Below, piece by piece: positions 29,301 through 60,182 of a DNA stretch of 64,000 bases. The position numbers and the translations under genes were made by a program. The notes below the pieces were generated by a model, which saw only the letters and a program-made list of their open reading frames with translations, was not told where the DNA came from and ran no database searches. Source of the DNA: Epinephelus fuscoguttatus (Eukaryota; Chordata; Actinopteri; Perciformes; Serranidae); contig NC_064773.1 in NCBI RefSeq assembly GCF_011397635.1, positions 318,001 to 382,000 of the forward strand. Reading direction: 5' to 3'. Position 1 is the first letter of the stretch. Each line of letters begins with the position of its first letter.

Positions 29301-32300
29301 CCAACGACTGTCGAATCATTCTGACCTCCTCCTGGAGTCGGTGGGGGTCGGGGGTGAGTGGGCGTCGGCCTGCAGGATGCAGTCCATGTGGTCGTGGGCG
29401 GAGCTATAGAGACGTTGGGCCACCTCGCTCTGCACTGGTCCATCCCCGAAAGCGTCCATGATGTCGTCCATGGAGGGAAACTCACACTGACCCCGCCTCT
29501 TGGCGCGCTGCCGCAGTTTGTTCCTGTGATGTTCGATCTCCGACTTATGTCTCAGCGCCACCTGCAGGACCAACACAGGAGGGTTGACGATGTCAGACAG
29601 GTTTTAAACGTCATGGCAGGCGGCGAGGGTGTTATTTATTTTCCTGAGCCTCTCACCTCCGTGCTGACCTTCTCTGTCAGCGAGGGGCTCGGATGGGGCG
29701 GGGCATGCAGTGGCGGTGGGCTCGGTCGCGGCTGCATGGCGATCAGCTGCACCTTGTTAGCCTGGCGACGTGTGCCGTCAGAGGAGCCTCGAGAGAGGCG
29801 GTCAACGTGGTCAAAGATGGAGGATGAGGACAGAAGCTCATCCGGAGCGCTGCCTGATGGAGTGACACAGGAAACAAAGTTTCTGTTACTGTGGCGACGC
29901 TCTGAGTCTGATCAGCTGATCGTCTCTGCTTGATCTCAGATCGATCACTGACAGGAAGTTATTGATTAGAGCAGCTTTCATGTGTCAGACCGGAAGTGAT
30001 GTCATAAACATACCCATCTTGTTCCTCCCTTCATCCAGTAGCATCAAAGAGAAAAAAAACAGATGTTTGATTACAAATGAACCTGAACTTTGTTTCCCTC
30101 CTCATCCTCCTCTTCCTCTCTTTGATTTGTTTTAAAGAATCCTAATTAAATTAAACTTCCTGTCGACACACTGACTCTAACGCTCCACTGCACCACACAC
30201 ACACACACACACACACACACACCAAACAGTTCAGCTGATGATGTCACTGTGTCTCTGACCATTTTTGGGTGTCTTCCTGTGCTGTTTCCCCTCACTGGGT
30301 GTGGCCACAGGACGGGTGCTCTCCTCTGCCGATTCTCTGCCACTTGATTGGTCGCTGCCTAACGAGTCGCCGTCTGACGGGCTGAGCCTGACAAGATGGA
30401 ATAATCACAGTCTGAGGCCAAATAAGCGCCAGCATTTTTGTAAAATAAAAACAATTTTGAAATTTAAGAATATTTGTAGACATTTCTAGAAATTCAGTTT
30501 TGGACGTTTCTGAAAAAAAAAAAAACATTTTTGAAACTTTGAACATTTGCGGCCGTTTTTAAAAGTACGTTTTTGCAGGTGGGGATAAACGTGTAAACTT
30601 CTGACCTGCCCCTGCGTCGGCTGGACCGTGCCACCTTCGTGGACGACCCTTTGGATTTGGGGGTGTTTAGGTCTCCGCCGTCAGAAGGCGTGGCCTCTTT
30701 GACGGGGGCAGGCAGTTGGCCGGGCTCCTGGATGACCATGATGTCGTCCTTGCTGTGCTGACCCAGGTGGAGTTTGGCGAAGTCGAAGCCTTTGACGCTC
30801 GGAGCCTGGAGCTGAGAGAGGACACACGATCAGCTGTTTGTGTGGACGACAGGAAGGAGTTAACCACTTCCTGTTGACCTCTGACCTTCTGCCTCTGCTG
30901 GATAGTGTTGATGGCATCTGGCTGGAACTCAAGCTTCTCAGAGCCGCACAGCTTCCAGTAGAGGATGATGATGATGAAGACGGCCAGCAGGACGGGGACG
31001 ACCACGCCAACGATCAGCCAGATGCTGCTGCTCTGAGTCTCCGCTGGGGGGACGGACAGGGTGTCCACAGCTGAGGACAGGTGAGACACGGGTAGGAGAC
31101 AGGTGAGACAGGGGAGACAGGTGAGACACAGGTGAGGTTAGATTCAGGTCTTGACTTACGTTGTGCGAGTGGTCTCTGGACTCGGTGTCCGAGGACGATG
31201 GCGGCTCTCTGCAGGTCCAGACGGTTCAGGGTGATGGCCGTGGCCTCAGCAGGTATCCGCTCACCACCTGGACCTTCTACGAAATAATATACCTCCAGGG
31301 GGCGCTCCGACCCCAACAGCCTCGCCACTCGCACCACCTGAGACACCACAGGTGAGACAGAATTATTATTCATTTACATTTCAAACTCTGATACATCACA
31401 AATCCAGAATTCTTCAGTTTGATTTGAACCTGGTCCAAACTTGGTTTCACTTGGCTGCTAGTTCATTCCTAGCTAGCCAGCATCGCAAATTGCCGCAACC
31501 AGGGAGCGGGTAGCGAGTGTTGGTCGGCTGACATCCTGGTTGCCATTCTACGGCAGCCCTTGGACAGTGATACCCCCCTCCCTTCCTTCTGTTCTCTTCT
31601 CACGGAGGCAGCTATCCACGGACATCGCCCAGCTAAGTTACACCCAGCTAAGTGAACACTGGACTTTGTTTCCCATTCAATTTGAGCTCCAACCGGCCGC
31701 ATGGTTTCCATACGGTAGCATTTATTCTAGAATGGGGACTGTTTACATGAGCATATTGGTATAATTCCACTGTGTCTACTGTTGTTTGTACTGGTACTGT
31801 ACATATTGGTATCATTTACTGTGAGCTGTTTGTACTGGTACTGTACATATTGGTATCATTTACTGTGAGCTGTTTGTACTGGTACTGTACATATTGGTGT
31901 CATTCACTGTGAGCTGTTTGTACTGGTACTGTACATATTGGTGTCATTTACTGTGAGCTGTTTGTACTGGTACTGTACATATTGGTATCATTTACTGTGA
32001 GCTGTTTGTACTGGTACTGTACATATTGGTATCATTTACTGTGAGCTGTTTGTACTGGTACTGTACATATTGGTGTCATTTACTGTGAGCTGTTTGTACT
32101 GGTACTGTACATATTGGTGTCATTTACTGTGAGCTGTTTGTACTGGTACTGTACATATTGGTATCATTTACTGTGAGCTGTTTGTACTGGTACTGTACAT
32201 ATTGGTATCATTCACTGTGAGCTGTTTGTACTGGTACTGTACATATTGGTGTCATTTACTGTGAGCTGTTTGTACTGGTACTGTACATATTGGTATCACT

Positions 32301-34169
32301 TACTGTGAGCTGTTTGGCCTGGTACTGTACATATTGGTATCATTGACTGTGAGCTGTTTGTACTGGTACTGTACATATTGGTATCATTCACTGTGAGCTG
32401 TTTGTACTGATACTGTACATATTGGTGTCATTTACTGTGAGCTGTTTGTACTGGTACTGTACATATTGGTGTCATTTACTGTGAGCTGTTTGTACTGGTA
32501 CTGTACATATTGGTATCATTTACTGTGAGCTGTTTGTACTGGTACTGTACATATTGGTGTCATTTACTGTGAGCTGTTTGTACTGGTACTGTACATATTG
32601 GTATCATTTACTGTGAGCTGTTTGTACTGGTACTGTACATATTGGTGTCATTCACTGTGAGTTGTTTGTACTGGTACTGTACATATTGGTATCATTTACT
32701 GTGAGCTGTTTGTACTGGTACTGTACATATTGGTATCATTCACTGTGAGCTGTTTGTACTGGTACTGTACATATTGGTATCATTTACTGTGAGCTGTTTG
32801 TACTGGTACTGTACATATTGGTGTCATTGACTGTGAGCTGTTTGTACTGGTACTGTACATATTGGTATCATTTACTGTGAGCTGTTTGTACTGGTACTGT
32901 ACATATTGGTGTCATTCACTGTGAGCTGTTTGTACTGGTACTGTACATATTGGTATCATTCACTGTGAGCTGTTTGTACTGGTACTGTGCATTCTGCTAT
33001 AATTATTTGCATTACTATTTGTTTTTTCTTCAGATAAATCTGATAATTGTTGCTCGGTCTCTTTACTCATTTATTTAGTAGAGTGTCCACACACCTTCTC
33101 ATTCTACATATACACAGAGGTATACTGGTGGCTTTACAGCCTACATTTTATTTAATTTAGAGATTCTAATAGAGTCATATTATTGATTATCTCTGATCCC
33201 CACGCTCAATTTGGTCGTTGCCACAGTGCGAGCAACAACGCTGACGCTAGGTGGCGCCAAGCTAAAAAAAACCAAATCCTATCTGTTGCCTCTTTAAAGC
33301 TTAGAGACTAGATTGCCATATGACATTTAAAGGATAATTGTTTATCAATGATAAAACCTAAGTACTTGTAACTCGTTCAAATGCATTACCTTGGGAAGTT
33401 ACAATGTTTGGAAGCATTACTGGTAGTCTAGCATTTTTTGGTTTGTGAACCAGGATGCTGCTTGTTATGACACGCCAATGTTAAGGAGCATATTGATCAA
33501 GATCTTAGGATTGACTGTATCAAACGCTTTTGATAGAAGATTGATTGCTATCCGCAGCATCAATGATGTCATTTGTTGCACTGTTAGTGCTGCCCTATAC
33601 ATGTGTGAGGTGAGTGTATACCAGTGTGACATGTGTGTATACCTGTGTGATGTGTGTGTATACCTGCAGACTGTTGTTGCCCACAGCTGTAGCTCTCCTC
33701 AGGCGCCTCCTGTTGGTGGTCTGCAGTCCCTCCTCCAGCAGCAGAGCCAGACGTCTCTCCAGACGAGCTTTAAAACTTCTCTCAGTCACCTGCTGCTCCT
33801 GAACCCCCAACAGGACTGAAACACACCAACACACCCACGCAGACTACAGTCAGCTCTGCTGTTGCTCTAACAACAATAACAATAATCCATCTCAGTGTTA
33901 CGGAGGTTAGTAAAGTGGAAGAACATCACCCATCTGTCTCCACACAATCCCAAACTATCTGTACTGAAGGTGGGCGGTGCCCAGGTGTGTCCTCACCTGT
34001 ACGGACCCAGGTGGAGCGCAGGTGGTGGGACGTGTTCAGCTCAGGGTAATGGAATGCTGTAACACAAACATGTCACATGTTTAACACCTGAGCAGAGTGA
34101 GACCTGTTCATGTGTGGTAAACACCTGACCTACACTCGTTTAACACGTGATGTACACAGGTAACAACAA

Positions 34170-34212
<43 letters not shown>

Positions 34213-37200
34213 CGTACGTTCTGCGATCTGCAGGACAGGATATCCTACGTAGAAGCTGAACTCAACCAGGCTGAGCTTCCTCAGATGTTCGCTAGCCTCT
34301 GACCCTGGCAGGAAGTCCCGCCCATCACGCACCGCAAAGACGATGTCGACGGAAACCTTCTGTTCTGCTGCCGCCAGCCGGGTTCCCATGGTGATGTTCA
34401 ACAGCTGGAGGAGACACACGGACGTACAGCCACTGAAACTCATCACGTTTTTATAGGTTCTGTTACCTGTTTAAATCCAACAGGTAACAGACTCACCTGT
34501 AGCTACCATTTTTTAAAGTTTTTTTTGGGGAGTTTTTCCTGATCAGCTGTGAGGGTCCTCAGGACAGAGGGATGTCGTATGCTGTAAAGCCCTGTGAGGC
34601 AAATTGTGATTTGTGATATTGGGCTTTATAAATAAAATTGAACTTGAAATTAAAACTGTACGGAGACGTTAACTATAAACAGGAAACAGACTCACCTGTA
34701 CGATGACATGTTACCTATGAACAGGTGACTCACCTGTACGGTGACATGCTAACTATAAACAGGAAACAGACTCACCTGTACGGTGACATGCTAACTATAA
34801 ACAGGTTACAGACTCACCTGTACGATGACATGTTACCTATGAACAGGTGACTCACCTGTACGGTGACATGCTAACTATAAACAGGAAACAGACTCACCTG
34901 TATGGTGACATGTTAACTATAAACAGGAAACAGACTCACCTGTACGGTGACATGTTAACTATAAACAGGTTACAGACTCACCTGTACGATGACATGTTAA
35001 CTATAAACAGGTGACTCACCTGTACGGTGACATGTTAACTATAAACAGGAAACAGACTCACCTGTACAGTGACGTTACTATAAACAGGAAACAGACTCAC
35101 CTGTACGGTGACATGTTAACTATAAACAGGTGACTCACCTGTACAGTGACATTACTATAAACAGGAAACAGACTCACCTGTACGGTGACATGTTACCTAT
35201 GAACAGGTGACTCACCTGTACGGTGACATGCTAACTATAAACAGGAAACAGACTCACCTGTACGGTGACATGTTAACTATAAACAGGTGACTCACCTGTA
35301 CGGTGACATGTTAACTATAAACAGGTTACAGACTCACCTGTACAGTGACGTTACTATAAACAGGAAACAGACTCACCTGTACGGTGACATGTTAACTATA
35401 AACAGGTGACTCACCTGTACAGTGACATTACTATAAACAGGAAACAGACTCACCTGTACGGTGACATGTTACCTATGAACAGGTGACTCACCTGTACGGT
35501 GACATGTTAACTATAAACAGGTGACTCACCTGTACGGTGACATGTTAATTATAAACAGGTTACAGACTCACCTGTACGGTGACATGTTAACTATAAACAG
35601 GTGACTCACCTGTACGGTGACATGTTAACTATAAACAGGTTACAGACTCACCTGTACAGTGACGTTACTATAAACAGGAAACAGACTCACCTATACGGTG
35701 ACATGTTAACTATAAACAGGTGAGTCACCTGTACGGTGACATGCTAACTATAAACAGGAAACAGACTCACCTGTACGGTGACATGTTAACTATAAACAGG
35801 TGACTCACCTGTACGGTGACATGTTAACTATAAACAGGTTACAGACTCACCTGTACAGTGATGTTACTATAAACAGGAAACAGACTCACCTATACGGTGA
35901 CATGTTAACTATAAACAGGTTACAGACTCACCTGTACAGTGACGTTACTATAAACAGGAAACAGACTCACCTGTACGGTGACATGTTACCTATGAACAGG
36001 TGACTCACCTGTACGGTGACATGTTAACTATAAACAGGTGACTCACCTGTACGGTGACATGTTAATTATAAACAGGTTACAGACTCACCTGTACGGTGAC
36101 ATGTTAACTATAAACAGGTGACTCACCTGTACGGTGACATGTTAACTATAAACAGGTTACAGACTCACCTGTACAGTGACGTTACTATAAACAGGAAACA
36201 GACTCACCTGTACGGTGACATGTTAACTATAAACAGGTGACTCACCTGTGAAGTGACATGTTAACTATAAACAGGTTACAGACTCACCTGTACAGTGACG
36301 TTACTATAAACAGGAAACAGACTCACCTGTACGGTGACATGTTAACTATAAACAGGTGACTCACCAAACAGGTTACAGACTCACCTGTACTGTGACGTTA
36401 CTATAAACAGGTGACTCACCTGTATGGTGACATTTCCTGCCTCATGCGATCGTTTCCGGGTCTCGCTGTACGCCATCACCAGCCCTCTCTCGACTCGTTC
36501 ACTGAAGTTACAGACTCTGACGTCGACGTGGGCAGGGACAAACTGCAACACAGAGTGGATCTGGTACCTGAGGTCAGGTACGGTGTAGAGCGGTGACACG
36601 GTGGGGATGGGGCCGAAGCCACGTGGCTGCTGGCGGAGGGCGTTGATGACGGACATGGCGGTGAAGATCAAAGATCCCGACACGACGCGGAAGGCAAAAC
36701 TGGATGGAGTTCTCAGGAACTGATGAGGCAGCAGAAAAGTGACAGACAGCTGTCAATCATGTGACATCATACAGGTATACATGTGACATCATCAAGGTGA
36801 GTTGAAGGTGTGTTCAGAGCTATAATGAAGACTCAGGACGACAGGTGAGAATAATTAACCAATATTGAAACCAGAGACCAGAAACAACAACAGGAATGAA
36901 ATGACCTAACACAGGGTTATGTGATAGGGCTTTTTAGTGGAGGTGGAGGAGGTGGTGGAGGAGGTGGAAGTGGGGGCGTCTGAGGAGGAGGTGATTTCTG
37001 TGGAGGTGGAGGTGACTGTTGTTGAGGAGGTGGTGTCTGTGGTGGAGGAGGTGGTATTTGATGCTGTGGAGGTGTTTGTGGTAGAGGAATTGGAAGTGAT
37101 GGAAGAGGCAATGTCGGTGGAGATGGAGGCGGAGCCTGTACCTGCAGCTCGACAGAGCGGTTGAACTCTTTCTTCAGCAGGTCTCTGACCTGACTGAAAC

Positions 37201-52774: not shown

Positions 52775-55700
52775 CTGAGGGGGGCAGATGGTCCAGGTTT
52801 GTATTGATCTGATCAGTTACAGGTTCAAAGACTTTCAGCCATCAGACTCACCTCAGGAGCTGGTCTCAGAGTCCAAAGGTTCAAACTCAACCCTGTCCCT
52901 TAGGAAGAATACTCCCTTAAGTTAAGGGATTCCTTTAGGAGCAACTCTCAGGTTGTCTCCATTCCCTCGGCTAGCTCCAGAGATGCTAACTGTGCTAATG
53001 CTAACAGGAGGAGGAGGAGCTCCACCCACACATCAGCAGACTCTGAGGGCAGACTGACGGTGTGAACTCGTCACTCACAGCATCAACATGGTTACCTGGT
53101 TTTATCTGAGCTGAATAATGTGTCTTGCATCTCTTACTCCTCTTCAATCGACATAAATTGAACCACAGTTTCATGTTCCGCTGATTATTAACCTGTAGAC
53201 AGACTCTGATTGGTTCCTTCAAATGTTCTGAAGGTTCCTGAAAACCTTCTGCCAACACATGAGAGCAAACTTCAGTTGTTAAGGGCAAACACCAAAATGT
53301 TTTCCTTTAAAGGAATACTCCAACGATTTGGGAGTTATGCCCTTTCTCTATCATTTTCATATTGAGACAACATGATCGATATCTTTTTTGTGTCTGTATG
53401 TCCAGTGGCTGGGTCTCGGTGGTTAGCATTGCAGCTTAGCTTAGCGAATACAATTGAAGTCTATAGGGGGTCAGTAGCCTACTCGTAAAAGTGAACAGAT
53501 AAACGTCCTCCTGACCCTTCAGACCCTCCTGACCCCCTGACCTCCTGACCTCCTGACCCTTCAGACCCCCTGACCTCCTGACCTCCTGACCCTTCAGACC
53601 CCCTGACCTCCTGACCCTTCAGACCCTCCTGACCCCCTGACCTCCTGACCCTTCAGACCCTCCTGACCCTTCAGACCCTCCTGACCCCCTGACCTCCTGA
53701 CCCTTCAGACCCTCCTGACCCTTCAGACCCTCCTGACCTCCTGACCCTTCAGACCTCCTGACCCTTCAGACCCTCCTGACCCTTCAGACCCTCCTGACCC
53801 CCTGACCTCCTGACCCTTCAGACCCCCTGACCTCCTGACCCTTCAGACCCTCCTGACCCCCTGACCTCCTGACCTCCTGACCTCCTGACCCTTCAGACCC
53901 TCCTGACCCTCTGACCTCCTGACCCTTCAGACCCTCCTGACCCCCTGACCTCCTGACCCTTCAGACCTCCTGACCTCCTGACCCTTCAGACCCTCCTGAC
54001 CCTTCAGACCCTCCTGACCCCCTGACCCTTCAGACCCTCCTGACCCCCTGACCTCCTGACCTTTATGGTTAACCTCCCTCCAGCGGTCTGACTCACCGGC
54101 TGTCCGTACTCCACCCAGTCCCCGTGGTCTCCCTTGTAGTACCACAGCCACTCGGTTGTCAGGACATAGTGAGGCGGCTTTGTTACCGAGGAAACTGTGG
54201 AGAGGCGGCGAACGGGCTGCGATTCCTGAGTCATCGTCACGAAGTCGACGCCACAGCTGAAAACAGAGAAGAGTCTGAGTCAACACCTCATCCACTATCA
54301 TCTTCACACCTGGACGAAGGTGAGATGTGACCTCCGACCTGTGCATCTTAGACGGGTCACAGAAGTCCTGCTCAATGTCCTCCATGTGCGGCAGATCCAT
54401 CCAGGTGAAGCCATCAAACACCTCCCACTTGTAGGGCAGGTGGAAGTGAACACGGCGACACTCGTCTGGTCAGAAACAACAGAACGATGTGAGACTGCAG
54501 CGGAGAGAGGCTGTGGTTTCATTTAAAGAAATCTGCTCCTGTGGTGACGTTAGAGAAATGATTAACCTGATGACATCACACACCATTCAATAATCTCTTT
54601 AAGGTTCATAAAAAATAACAACACAAATAAAAGAGTATCCTCCTGCATGGACCAGAGTCTCTTTAACCGGCCCGGTGCAGCTGCACGTTTAGACAAAGAC
54701 AGGCCTGTCTCCATTAGAGGCCTGGTCTGGTTACACCAAACACCTGGTTTTCAGCTAATGTCAAGTATTTAAACTCTGCTGCCATCTGGTGGAGTTTAAA
54801 TAACCAGGTGATGTGTGATGACAGGGTGACGGTGAGGTTACGATGAAGTAATGAATGTGAACTCACTCTGAAACCTGCAGCTGTTTCTGGTGAAGTGCAG
54901 ACAGATCTCTGTCCGCTCATCCGTCTGATCCACAGCGTGATACGACGAATCAGGAGACGTCTCTGACAGACACATGGATACATCGAGAGTCATCCTGCAC
55001 GCTGTCTGATACACTGCTAATACTGAGCAGGTGTAAAAAGGTGTGTCATTGTTACCTGTGGCAGCGGCGGCGGTGAGGTGGTGGATGTTCCTGTAGATGA
55101 CAGGCAGCTCGTGGATGACATCAGCGCTCAGTCCCCTCTCCTCCAGCATGCGGCGGCCTTCCTGGTCAATGGCGTGCTGGCGTTTACACTTGCTTCCGAA
55201 CATGCAGTCGCCCTGGACGAAGTGCTGACACAGGTGCACCTTGGTGCAGCTCTCCCTGAAGGTGCAGTTGCCATGAGGACCGCAGCCTTTGTTGTAGTGC
55301 AGACACACCTGAGACAGGAAGTCAAACAGGAAGTGACACAGCCAGCGGTGAAACACCTGAGAAACACATTACACTGAAGAAATCTAATGTTTGTTTTTAA
55401 TCATGACTGAACTTCCCATAATAAATCATCTTTTAATAAACGATTACAGGTGGACGTTTGTTGTAAATATGTGTTTTCATAATTACAACAAAAAGAGTTT
55501 GTGTTTATGGATTAAATGTAAAATATATATATATGTGATGCTTATAGAACGAAAGTCAGAATATACACAAAGAACAAAATCTGAAATGAAACTTTGAGTA
55601 TATGGAGTGACAGTCTAAATATACGGAATTAAAGTTCCGTGACAGTCGGCATATATAGAATTAAAGTCTGGTTATATAGAACAAAACTTGATTTGAGTGT

Positions 55701-58700
55701 ATGGAATAAAAGCCAGAATACTTAGAATGAACTTAAATATACAGAATGGAAGTCAGAATATATAAAACAAAACTCTGAGTGCATGAAGTGGCAGTCACAA
55801 TATACGACATGAAAGTTTGAGTTTATAGAATGAAAGTTGGAATATAATGGAATAAAAGTACAGAAGAATATACAGAATTAAATTTGAATATATGGAATGA
55901 AACTTGAATATAGAGAATGAAAGCCCGAAAATATAGAATGAAACTTTGAGTGTATAGAGTAAAAGTTTGACTATATATAATTAAAGCCAGAATGATACTT
56001 TAAATATAAAGAATGAAAGTTGGATGAAACTCAGCATATATAGAACTAAAGTTTGGTTATATCAAATAAAAAGTTTCAGTTTATAGAATGAACATTGGAA
56101 TATAATGGAATCAAAGTTTGATTATATGGATTAAAAGTCAGAATATACAGAACGGAATTAAAATGTATGGAATGAAACTTGAACATATTGAATACAAGTG
56201 GGAATACATAGGATCAAAGTTTGAGTGTATGGAATGACAGTGGGAATATATAGAGTTAAATTTAAATATACGGAATTAAAGTTTGGACATTAGGAGTGAC
56301 AATGGGAATATATAGAGTTAAAGTTTAGATATACAGAATAAAGAGACAGAGAGAATCTATCACATGAAACTTAATAATATTGAATATAATTTGAGAAGAC
56401 TCTCTTCTCAATAAAGTGTGATTAATGTGATGTTCTATTAATATGACTTTTTTCTATTAATATGGGTTTTCAACTGTAGGATTCTGATGAATGGATGAAC
56501 AAATAAAAGGATGCTGTATTAATAAATGATGTGGTTGTGAGCATGAGATGTTTAGTCATGATGAATAAAACCAGACAGAAACAAAATGCTTTTACTTTAC
56601 CTCTGAGGAAAACTCACTCACTCACCTCCACACCTTTATTGTTTTTTCTTTTTTTTTTAATTTTTGTTCTTTTTCTTTTTTGTTCTTTTTTAAATTTTTG
56701 TTCTTTTTTCTTCTTTTTTTTCTTCTTTTTTTGTTCTTTTCCCTTTGTTCGTTTTTTTTTTCTTTTTTGTTCTTTGTTTTGTTTGTTGACGTCTTCAACT
56801 GTCCAAAACCCAAAGATGTTTATTTTAACAGCAGAGAACACTCAGGTACATCACAGGTGTCTCAGGTGTGTCTCAGGTGTGTCTCAGGCGTGTCTCAGGT
56901 GTATCTCAGGTGTGTTACAGGTGTGTCTCAGGTGTGTCTCAGGCGTATCTCAGGCGTGTCTCAGGTGTATCTCAGGCGTGTCTCAGGTGTGTCTCAGATG
57001 TGTTACAGGTGTGTTACAGGCGTGTCTCAGGTGTATCTCAGGTGTATCTCAGGTGTGTTACAGATGTGTCTCAGGTGTGTTACAGGTGTGTCTCGGGTGT
57101 GTTACAGACGTGCCTCAGGTGTGTTACAGGCGTGTCTCAGGTGTATCTCAGGTGTGTTACAAGTGTGTCTCAGGTGTGTTACAGGCGTGTCTCAGGTGTG
57201 TCTCAGGTGTGTTACAGGAGTGTCTCAGGCATGTTACATGCGTGTTACATGCGTGTTACAGGCATGTCTCAGGTGTATCTCGGGTCTATCTCAGGTGTGT
57301 TACAGGCGTGTCTCAGGTGTGTTACAGGCGTGTCTCAGGTGTGTTACAGGTGTATCTCAGGTGTGTCTCAGATGTGTTACAGGTGTGTTACAGGCGTGTC
57401 TCAGGTGTATCTCAGGTGTGTTACAGGCGTGTCTCAGGTGTATCTCAGGTGTGTCTCAGGTGTGTTACAGGCGTGTCTCAGGTGTATCTCAGGTGTGTTA
57501 CAGGTGTGGCTTAGGTGTATCTCGGGTGTATCTCGGGTGTATCTCAGGTGTGTTACAGGCGTGTCTCAGGTGTGTCTCAGGTGTATCTCAGGTGTGGCTC
57601 AGGTGTGGCTCAGGTGTGTTACAGGAGTGTCTCAGGTGTATCTCAGGTGTGTTACAGGTGTGGCTCAGGTGTATCTCAGGTGTATCTCAGGTGTGTTACA
57701 GGCGTGTCTGAGGTGTGTTATAGGCGTGTCTCAGGTGTATCTCGGGTGTATCTCAGGTGTGTTACAGGTGTGTCTCAGGTGTATCTCAGGTGTGTTACAG
57801 ATGTGGCTCAGGTGTATCTCAGGTGTGGCTCAGGTGTGGCTCAGGTGTGTTACAGATGTGGCTCAGGTGTATCTCAGGTGTGTTACAGGTGTGGCTCAGG
57901 TGTATCTCAGGTGTGTTACAGGTGTGTTACAGGTGTGTCTCAGGTGTATCTCGGGTGTATCTCAGGTGTGTTACAGGTGTGTCTCAGGTGTGGCTCAGGT
58001 GTATCTCAGGTGTGTTACAGGTGTGTTACAGATGTATCTCAGGTGTGGCTCAGGTGTGGCTCAGGTGTATCTCAGGTGTGTTACAGGTGTGTCTCAGGTG
58101 TATCTCAGGTGTGTTACAGGTGTGGCTCAGGTGTGTCTCAGATATATCTCAGGTGTGTTACAGGTGTGTCTCAGGTTTATCTCTCGTGTGTTACAGGTGT
58201 ATCTCAGGTGTGGCTCAGGTGTGCCTCAGGTGTGTTACCTCTGGCAGCAGGGCGGGGTCGTTCTGCAGCAGTAGCAGGAACAGCTGCTCCTCGTCGAGGT
58301 CGTGCAATGTGCATTCTCTCAGTAAGTCAAAGTTGCGACCCGAACGAATGTCGTGGGAGAATTTACACGGCTTCCTGCAACAGATGATGACATCACACAT
58401 CTTCATATCATCAGTGATCAATAATCAATACTTAATATTTATCACCAGTCTGCTGCGTCCTGACTTTATGACAACCTGCTGCAGAATGAGTTGAACAGAA
58501 CATACCTGCCGACTCTGGATTCAGCTGAATAAAAAGGATTCATAAATCATAACATTAAATTCTGAAGGTTTCACTCAGTGGTCAGGTGTGAACAGTTACA
58601 GGTGTGTGTGGTGCAGCTCAAACACCTGACGACACAATATTTAGATCCTCAGTGACAAACAGGTAAACACTAGTTAGTTAATGAGGGGAAAACTATTATC

Positions 58701-59202
58701 CAAATTCCAGCAGCTGCTGACACAAACAAACATGTGAAAACATGTCAACATGCATGACACGTTTCAAACAGCTGCTGTGAGATAAATAAATTCAGGCTGA
58801 GGAACAAACTGCAGCAGAGACGAGGACGGACTGATGAAGCTTCACTACAGGTTAATAAAGGACACCTGTCCACATGCAAATGAGGACGAGGAGCAGCAGA
58901 TTCTACCTGAGATATGAACACATGATCAGAAACACTCAGACAGGTGAGCACACGCCATCATCATCACCATCAGTTTCATTTCCCTGGAATCAGTCAGCTG
59001 TTCTATGACTTCACTGTAACATGACACCTTCTCATGGCTATGGTGTTGCTATGGTAACAGCTTTGGTCCCTGTTTACTTCCTGTCAGCTGACAAACTGTC
59101 CAAGGTACAACGTTGTAATGTCACCTCAGTGAGGTGTGACACACTTTAATGAGACTAATTACAGATCGTCTGTGTGTCGGTCCCACGGTGACCACAGAGT
59201 CC

Positions 59203-59234
<32 letters not shown>

Positions 59235-59823
59235 GTTTTGTGGTGTAATGCTCCTTTAATACGCAGCTGCAGCAGGTTTCTGTTTCCTTAAGTTTCGTTT
59301 GGCCTGTTCACAGCTGCAGGAGGAGTGTATCCCTCCGCGGCGGAGGAAACAGACAGTGAAATTAATGCAGATGATGAGTTCAGTCTCTGCGTGTTGTTTT
59401 AGATCTACGGAAGCCTGGAAGCGGTTAATAACTTCATCAGAACAAACTGATTGTACATGTTACTGTGACACCCTGTGCGCGTGCGCGCTGCTCTCACCTG
59501 CCCTTGCCGAACCTGCAGTTTCCGTAGATGAAGAACTTGCACAGGTGGAGGTGTGGACAGTCCTCCTGGCTGCAGCCTCCGCTCTCCTCCCGACCGTATC
59601 GACCGCACAGCCGCAGGGACGTCTGGGCCACCACGGTGAGGCCCCCCGCCGGGCCGCCGACCAACAGGAAGCGGGGACACTTCTGGACGATGAAGCAGAA
59701 CTCCTGCTCGGTGATGTCGACGCGCTGCAGCAGCTTGCGGTGCAGCTGCAGCAGCTCCATGGACCCGGAGCTGCTGCACAGCAAGCTGGTGGCGAGCTGC
59801 ACCTCCCGGCTGTACCCGGACAT
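52436..59823 (-). CDS. zc3hav1: ZC3HAV1-like (ZAP-like) CCCH-WWE protein lacking a PARP domain
   Basis: Related to vertebrate ZAP, which binds CpG-rich foreign RNA in the cytoplasm and recruits RNA decay factors. Exons: 59823-59498, 58374-58239, 55308-55056, 54962-54867, 54465-54339, 54256-54097, 52774-52654 and 52548-52436. All have GT-AG borders and matching phases: 443 residues. Residues 1-85 resemble the N-terminal winged-helix part. CCCH-type finger at C95-C103-C112-H116; Cys/His clusters at 156-179 and C181-C189-C195-H199; another finger at C259-C267-C273-H277. Tandem WWE-like region from about 280 (LPYKWEVF, GFTWMDLP, EQDFCDP; then EWLWYYKGDHGDWVEYG). The TAG at 52438-52436 follows RRPRFVSVAQVQ, where PARP12/ZC3HAV1 would continue to a catalytic domain. 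Synteny beside KIAA1549 supports ZC3HAV1 or ZC3HAV1L; the exact paralogue is uncertain. Confidence 0.88.
53505..54062. repeat. Minisatellite (cctcctgacccttcagac)
   Basis: Alternation of cctcctgac and ccttcagac blocks, about 560 bp, in the intron after exon 54256-54097 and starting about 35 bp from its donor. Confidence 0.92.
55400..56400. repeat. Degenerate AT-rich tandem repeat
   Basis: Diverged units built around aatatatagaat, gaaagttt and gagtatatggaatg fill about 1 kb of the intron between exons 58374-58239 and 55308-55056. Confidence 0.75.
56640..56785. repeat. T-rich low-complexity tract
   Basis: Runs of T broken by ttcttt and gttctttt; AA-poor on the plus strand. Open frames of Phe or Lys/Glu are low-complexity translations. 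Confidence 0.9.
56840..58236. repeat. 11-bp minisatellite starting at a splice donor
   Basis: About 125 copies of an 11-bp unit (caggtgtgtct, caggtgtgtta, caggtgtatct, caggtgtggct), ending directly at the donor of exon 58374-58239. Because the unit has no stops in any phase, all three plus frames are open for hundreds of codons (RCVSGVSQVCY style). These are not genes. Confidence 0.95.
58490..59497. other. First intron of the ZC3HAV1-like gene, non-coding part
   Basis: No exon homology or RNA gene seen. It contains a (gat)n run at 59203-59233. Confidence 0.6.
59498..59823 (-). CDS. zc3hav1: ZC3HAV1-like exon 1 (winged-helix part and first zinc finger)
   Basis: Start MSGYSREVQLATSLL at 59823. 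The frame is open upstream, but no other ATG fits the family start. DITEQEFCFIVQKCPRFLLV is the family's conserved N-terminal segment; HLHLCKFFIYGNCRFG begins the first CCCH finger, completed by exon 2 (KPCKFSH). GC-rich, like many first exons. Confidence 0.88.
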
Positions 59824-60182
59824 GATGCTCTCTGAGCGGACTCCACCGGCAGACTGAGCCCGGTCTGTACCCGCAGCCCGGTACACCTCCCACAACACTT
59901 CCGCCTCCACACTGTCACGGTAAAAGCACACCTCCACAACACAGGCACAGCAGCTGATAGTGACGTCACTGTCTGACAATAAATAAACAGTAAACAGAAG
60001 CAGGAACAAAGTGCAGCAGTGTCTGGTCTGTACAGGAACAACTGCTCCGGAACAAAACTCACAATATATAAAACAAATCAGTCTGAATGAAGACTGAAGG
60101 TTTATTCTGCTGAGTGACACTGATCAGATGACACTCCTCTGACACTTATATTTGATATGGAACTACAGGGACGTGTGCTGTG

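Follow-up and report, generated by a model that had tools for sequence, protein, structure and literature searches.

What happens when the end of an exon, together with its 5′ splice site, is repeated some forty times in the intron that follows, and how does such a row of donors come about? The question is raised by a gene on the minus strand of the 64,000-bp stretch of grouper DNA analysed here (the window, G000:C22:318001-382000, from a genome of 1.047 Gb in 26 contigs). The protein obtained by joining its exons matches UPF0606 protein KIAA1549 isoform X1 from Epinephelus lanceolatus (giant grouper) with 100% identity over 419 aa, and PF12877 with an E value of 5.2e-143. The exons followed were B (37224-37142), C (36719-36420), D (34404-34218), E (34056-33997), F (33815-33664) and G (31337-31160), all on the minus strand. 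Exon C, placed by protein identity and PF12877, ends in ATGTCACCATACAG and is the seed of the array discussed below. Its boundary reads ATGTCACCATACAG|GTGAGTC, with the authentic donor GTGAGTC at 36413-36419 on the minus strand. Exon D, its acceptor partner by protein continuity, joins to it in frame as in the E. lanceolatus protein (P0001), and the junction taken in the annotated KIAA1549 protein is the first donor. The intron between exons C and D is 2015 nt long and the one upstream of exon C 422 nt. Exon D has itself a very weak donor (AAC|GTACGG, 34218), after which comes a CA repeat. The neighbouring minus-strand gene at 54400-60100 encodes a PARP12-like winged helix and CCCH fingers (PF24356, PF25261).

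The preliminary description had reported a minisatellite made of about 43 copies of this splice site between 34665 and 36420. The copy number is confirmed both by TRF (34656-36356, period 42, 42.8 copies, 83% matches) and by the 43 GTGAGTC decoys, each within a repeat unit, that are found in the array. The limits needed correction: the array is better placed at 34656-36419 on the minus strand, where 45 units can be counted from the real donor on (the 43 GTGAGTC decoys plus one GTGACTC variant), and the final 14 exon bases (36433-36420) form a first partial unit. Each unit was also said to carry a nearly authentic exon end in front of GTGAGTC, which is true of the consensus (13 of 14 bases), while the core is more variable than claimed, the exact ATGTCACCGTACAG being present upstream of 26 of the 44 repeat donors (43 GTGAGTC and the GTGACTC variant). 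The units are mainly 38, 39 or 42 nt long and come in 19 versions of mixed order; one block of six successive units occurs again within the array, which points to block duplication. On the plus strand at 34502-34655 the array is interrupted by a 154-bp insert, read directly, with CTGTA on both flanks (34497-34501 and 34656-34660), which from its look we take to be the 3′ tail of a retroelement. Past the insert lies a diverged remnant of the array (34445-34501, minus strand) that holds one more GTGAGT (GT at 34496), bringing the GTGAGT decoys of the whole intron to 44 and leaving 92 nt between the last of them and the acceptor. The best local alignment of this remnant scores 63, little above the highest of 300 shuffles (60; mean 32.5), which leaves the donor as its one clear feature. 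A genome-wide search with the 22-nt unit junction (one mismatch at most) gave 16 places, every one of them at the KIAA1549 locus with the real donor included, and the reversed pattern gave 0.

The units were aligned to the exon junction to see where the repeat came from. The last 14 bases of exon C (36420-36433, minus strand) share homology with the 3′ portion of the repeat unit and agree with its consensus at 13 positions, whereas the 134 other CAG|GT sites on the gene strand of the window (34640-36460 left out) agree at 10 of 14 at most, a value reached twice. Upstream of this core, exon C and the unit have only scattered bases in common. Outside the array the exon 14-mer is not found within 1 mismatch on either strand of the window; 13 places have up to 3 mismatches and the best has 2. 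The exon end encodes G-N-V-T-I-Q, of which the last 14 bases give V-T-I-Q, and the consensus core of the repeat (GTC ACC GTA CAG) would read V-T-V-Q. These residues are conserved in fish. In the best 120 of the 243 fish proteins above threshold, among which species recur, 116 are readable at the junction; position five of GNVT[V/I]Q holds V in 105 of them, with I in 8, M in 2 and L in 1. The array thus seems to keep an older exon end, since V is the residue of 105 of these 116 proteins and of the repeat core while the grouper exon has I. Between the two codons, GTA in the repeat and ATA in the exon, stands a CpG-to-CpA change, and one repeat unit carries the same change as the exon. Judged from these sequences, the simplest history would have the array arise from an exon that still carried GTA, with the CpG-to-CpA change reaching the exon afterwards, which would make the array codon a likely fossil. 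A KIAA1549-like paralogue on C4, presumably KIAA1549L, has 49-56% identity and an intron at the same position (NFTVH|GTGAGTG); the 1711 nt checked in that intron contain no second GTGAGT. The joint of exons C and D therefore lies at an intron position shared with the paralogue, and no new intron was formed in the duplicated sequence. The 13/14 match, the coding conserved in fish and this array-free paralogue support the origin first proposed for the array, namely that the exon/intron junction was duplicated in tandem. The opposite view is that the intron gave rise to a generic minisatellite rich in CAGGTG, whose likeness to the exon is incidental, or that the array wrote itself into the exon. 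The same three observations speak against it, the paralogue as a partial refutation, and we consider it improbable even with the genome-wide evidence in its favour that is given further below.

Donor strength was taken as the pairing energy with the U1 5′ end. The real donor of exon C pairs at -12.2 kcal/mol and so do 41 of the 44 decoys, the weaker ones being two at -10.6 and one at -9.2 kcal/mol; eight other donors of KIAA1549 range from -1.7 to -12.2 kcal/mol. The decoys were therefore rightly described as strong. It was also correct that decoy use would add repeat sequence to the mRNA, to which must be added that each of the 44 decoys brings a premature stop, computed to begin 36 or 39 nt past the end of exon C, i.e. 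within 14 codons; 15 of the 44 would add a multiple of three nt. Equal strength in 41 of 44 and a stop from 44 of 44 are what one would expect if the decoys were used appreciably as a brake, the decoy transcripts gaining a stop and being degraded so that array length tunes the output of KIAA1549. A further point for such a brake is that the outermost decoy makes a short intron of 92 nt, and among human near-equal donors short introns tend to favour the downstream site and long introns the upstream one (PMC9225289). Set against it are five human minigenes carrying a pair of identical strong donors, in which, under exon definition, the upstream donor was exclusively used (PMC9225289). The wider human figures there are less one-sided: among natural events with near-equal donors the upstream one wins just 60%, and across all events the downstream one is preferred in about 60% (PMC9225289). 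Exon definition is the likely mode for exon C, by extension of such human work to a fish, because it lies between a 422-nt upstream and a 2015-nt downstream intron. The brake also sits poorly with an annotated protein that takes the first junction. Protein records were tried as a witness of decoy use and given up: none of the 120 listed fish proteins (best 120 of 243) shows an insertion 5 residues or less from the junction, a result against the brake that says little on grouper RNA. Three of them have insertions 6 residues past the junction (P0022, P0047 and P0064) and 12 have deletions within 6 residues of it (P0072, P0082, P0084, P0086, P0094, P0096, P0099, P0101, P0104, P0105, P0108 and P0111). 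Taken together, we regard appreciable use of the decoys as a brake as unlikely, although it is the rival to be taken most seriously. Another idea, that ACCTG, the donor complement, downstream of donors is a general theme, was dropped as too weak (8 of 31 solitary CAGGTGAG have ACCTG within 40 nt, with a background of 10-13%).

It may also be asked whether the array itself has a function under selection, as a row of U1 sites guarding the pre-mRNA from early cleavage, as an RNA fold that hides the decoys, or as an AP-1-like DNA element. The intron does offer 44 decoy U1 sites, and the array has 18 TGASTCA (AP-1-like) motifs. On folding, the prediction for a 741-nt stretch of the array is z -8.3 when compared with 20 shuffles; predictions in three settings also make the real donor more open than 30, 44 and 36 of the 44 decoys. 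The predicted 50-nt fold around the real donor has z -3.3 and places the donor inside a hairpin. A fairer control than ordinary shuffles is given by tandem arrays built from shuffled units. Against these, four KIAA1549 unit models fold at z -2.1, -2.0, -0.6 and -2.9, so that the excess at KIAA1549 shrinks to between -0.6 and -2.9; the units of two other grouper genes described below give -0.5 (a zinc-finger gene) and +0.7 (L050), and four further arrays lie between -1.6 and +0.5. RNA structure was therefore rejected as the cause of the decoys being ignored, the fold being mostly reproduced by tandem arrays of shuffled units. By these predictions structure may help at KIAA1549 and is not a general explanation, and a selected function for the array appears to us very improbable, the least likely of the readings weighed.

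The array has company in the gene, in the window and in the genome. A second small donor array in KIAA1549 (33596-33666, minus strand; a 21-nt unit in 3.4 copies) starts at the donor of exon F, with which it has CAG alone in common. Its first decoy would add VYTHITQ in frame with no stop, the decoys adding seven or fourteen residues. Counting arrays with a period of at least 10, at least 3 copies and a length of about 100 bp or more, we found 16 in the window, covering 11,444 of its 64,000 bp, and none by the same criteria in five 9.9-kb stretches elsewhere (four mid-chromosome and the paralogue locus). Two arrays of the window are CTCACCTGT-like and fill most of their intron up to the acceptor, i.e. 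they are acceptor-side arrays: one at 31066-31136 in KIAA1549 and one at 364-1205 in an MFS transporter-like gene, which we assume to be SVOPL from synteny. The latter array carries CAGGTGAGG antisense to its gene, an arrangement that a generic minisatellite would explain. The same may be said of the frequency of CAGGTGAGT in grouper tandem arrays, three of them spaced 11-41 nt apart giving 492 overlapping matches genome-wide, where the reversed pattern gives 43. The matches listed come from C1 to C9 and were grouped by hand into at least 10 loci, with the donor-side flank read in eight. Among these listed matches, 2 of the 8 flank-read loci have an array that begins at an exon carrying an ATG reading frame. 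No clear coding exon adjoining the array was seen by eye in the other 6, again among the matches listed, which is a further point for a generic repeat; open frames of about 35 to 67 codons reach the array at L046, L048 and L049. Among the matches listed, 6 of 10 loci lie less than 1 Mb from the end of a contig, which also holds for the window. L051 and L052 were looked at for repeat structure only. In L051 (G000:C5:186000-195900) the CAGGTGAGTAAC array flips strand midway, with a 31-nt unit in 18 copies followed by a 61-nt unit in 34 copies in the opposite direction.

The two loci with an exon are the following. One, L053 (G000:C6:46582500-46592400, minus strand), is the exon 1 array of a C2H2 zinc-finger gene (downstream fingers PF00096, E 2.9e-22). 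Its 42-nt units consist of the last 19 bases of exon 1 plus the start of the intron, in 103 junction copies. Of 102 copies, 49 repeat the 19 exon bases exactly and 51 do so with a single change, which speaks against an incidental match. By donor type 60 copies are GC and 43 GT, the first three being GC. The other, L050 (G000:C4:45132000-45141900), is a first-exon donor array of 21-nt units in 18 copies. About 4 kb past it lies a frame resembling the ubiquitin-like domain of IQUB (IQUB PDB chains at E 0.0052 and 0.036; best PDB match 2daf at E 0.00032; Pfam ubiquitin below the cut-off), so that L050 is a probable IQUB gene, provided that the array exon and the downstream frame belong to one gene, as we infer. 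No Pfam match was obtained for the exon 1 peptide of either L053 or L050. The junction array of KIAA1549 is thus not a one-off, and two other genes of the grouper genome have the same build.

The reading that we prefer, with a probability of roughly three in four, is that a minisatellite was seeded at the exon/intron junction near a chromosome end and has been tolerated as exon definition takes the donor nearest the exon. Its beginning would have been a duplication in tandem that spanned the 3′ end of KIAA1549 exon C together with the donor, in a region rich in minisatellites close to the contig (probably chromosome) end; unequal exchange or slippage would then have brought it to about 43 copies. 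The copies are intronic, and the first junction is intact and the one nearest the exon. Exon definition, joining the upstream acceptor with the nearest donor, would lead to use of the first donor and to removal of the intron with the array as a whole, and stray use of a decoy would give an early-stop transcript, a likely target of nonsense-mediated decay. The array, its exon origin, the equal donor strength, the stops and the same build at two other genes are shown by the analysis, and dominance of the upstream donor at exon C would follow by analogy with the human minigenes. Some points go against this reading. Only 14 nt of homology link the array to the exon, and a hairpin is predicted to contain the real donor. 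Also, position would have to outweigh strength in the zinc-finger gene, because its first three donors are GC and 43 of its 103 copies have the usually stronger GT. A broader version, which we offer tentatively and hold to be rather less likely than not to be correct, is that junction minisatellites are a recurrent product near grouper chromosome ends, at the exon ends of many genes, and persist by strongly positional donor choice. If so, dozens of identical or stronger downstream donors would be ignored because donor choice under exon definition is strongly positional, and the zinc-finger gene, with GC first and 43 GT behind, would be its extreme demonstration.

KIAA1549 is a natural case of 45 near-identical donors lined up one after another, a choice that donor strength cannot account for; the two further genes of the same build are material for the question whether position decides it. 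It also looks like a case of a minisatellite preserving the fossil of an older exon end. In the human IFI6 gene (6-16, G1P3), too, the minisatellite reportedly starts at an exon end and shares its sequence. This is the closest published case that we found: two downstream repeat units are reported to serve as donors, and three mRNAs result (Turri et al. 1995, as cited in PMC4526556). Both minisatellites supply multiple splice donor sites to a transcript; they differ in that the repeat donors of IFI6 are reported to be used, while KIAA1549 has 43 decoys, each giving a stop, that are not known to be used. For donor choice, the equal-donor study worked with two-site minigenes (PMC9225289). Among the matches listed from the open-licence literature, no report of a comparable array in fish was recognised. 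In human segmental-duplication genes, minisatellites at exon-intron boundaries average 30-bp units in 4 copies (160 bp) and may create new introns (PMC2812944). Like these, the KIAA1549 array is a tandem repeat at an exon-intron boundary that changes gene structure, but it is about ten times longer and shows no new intron. Tandem duplication has likewise been linked to splice-site sequence in intron gain by tandem genomic duplication (PMC4974935), whereas the KIAA1549 copies stay inside an existing intron. The kind of array is already known; of interest here are how large it has become, the codon that is likely a fossil, and the fact that three genes show the same build.
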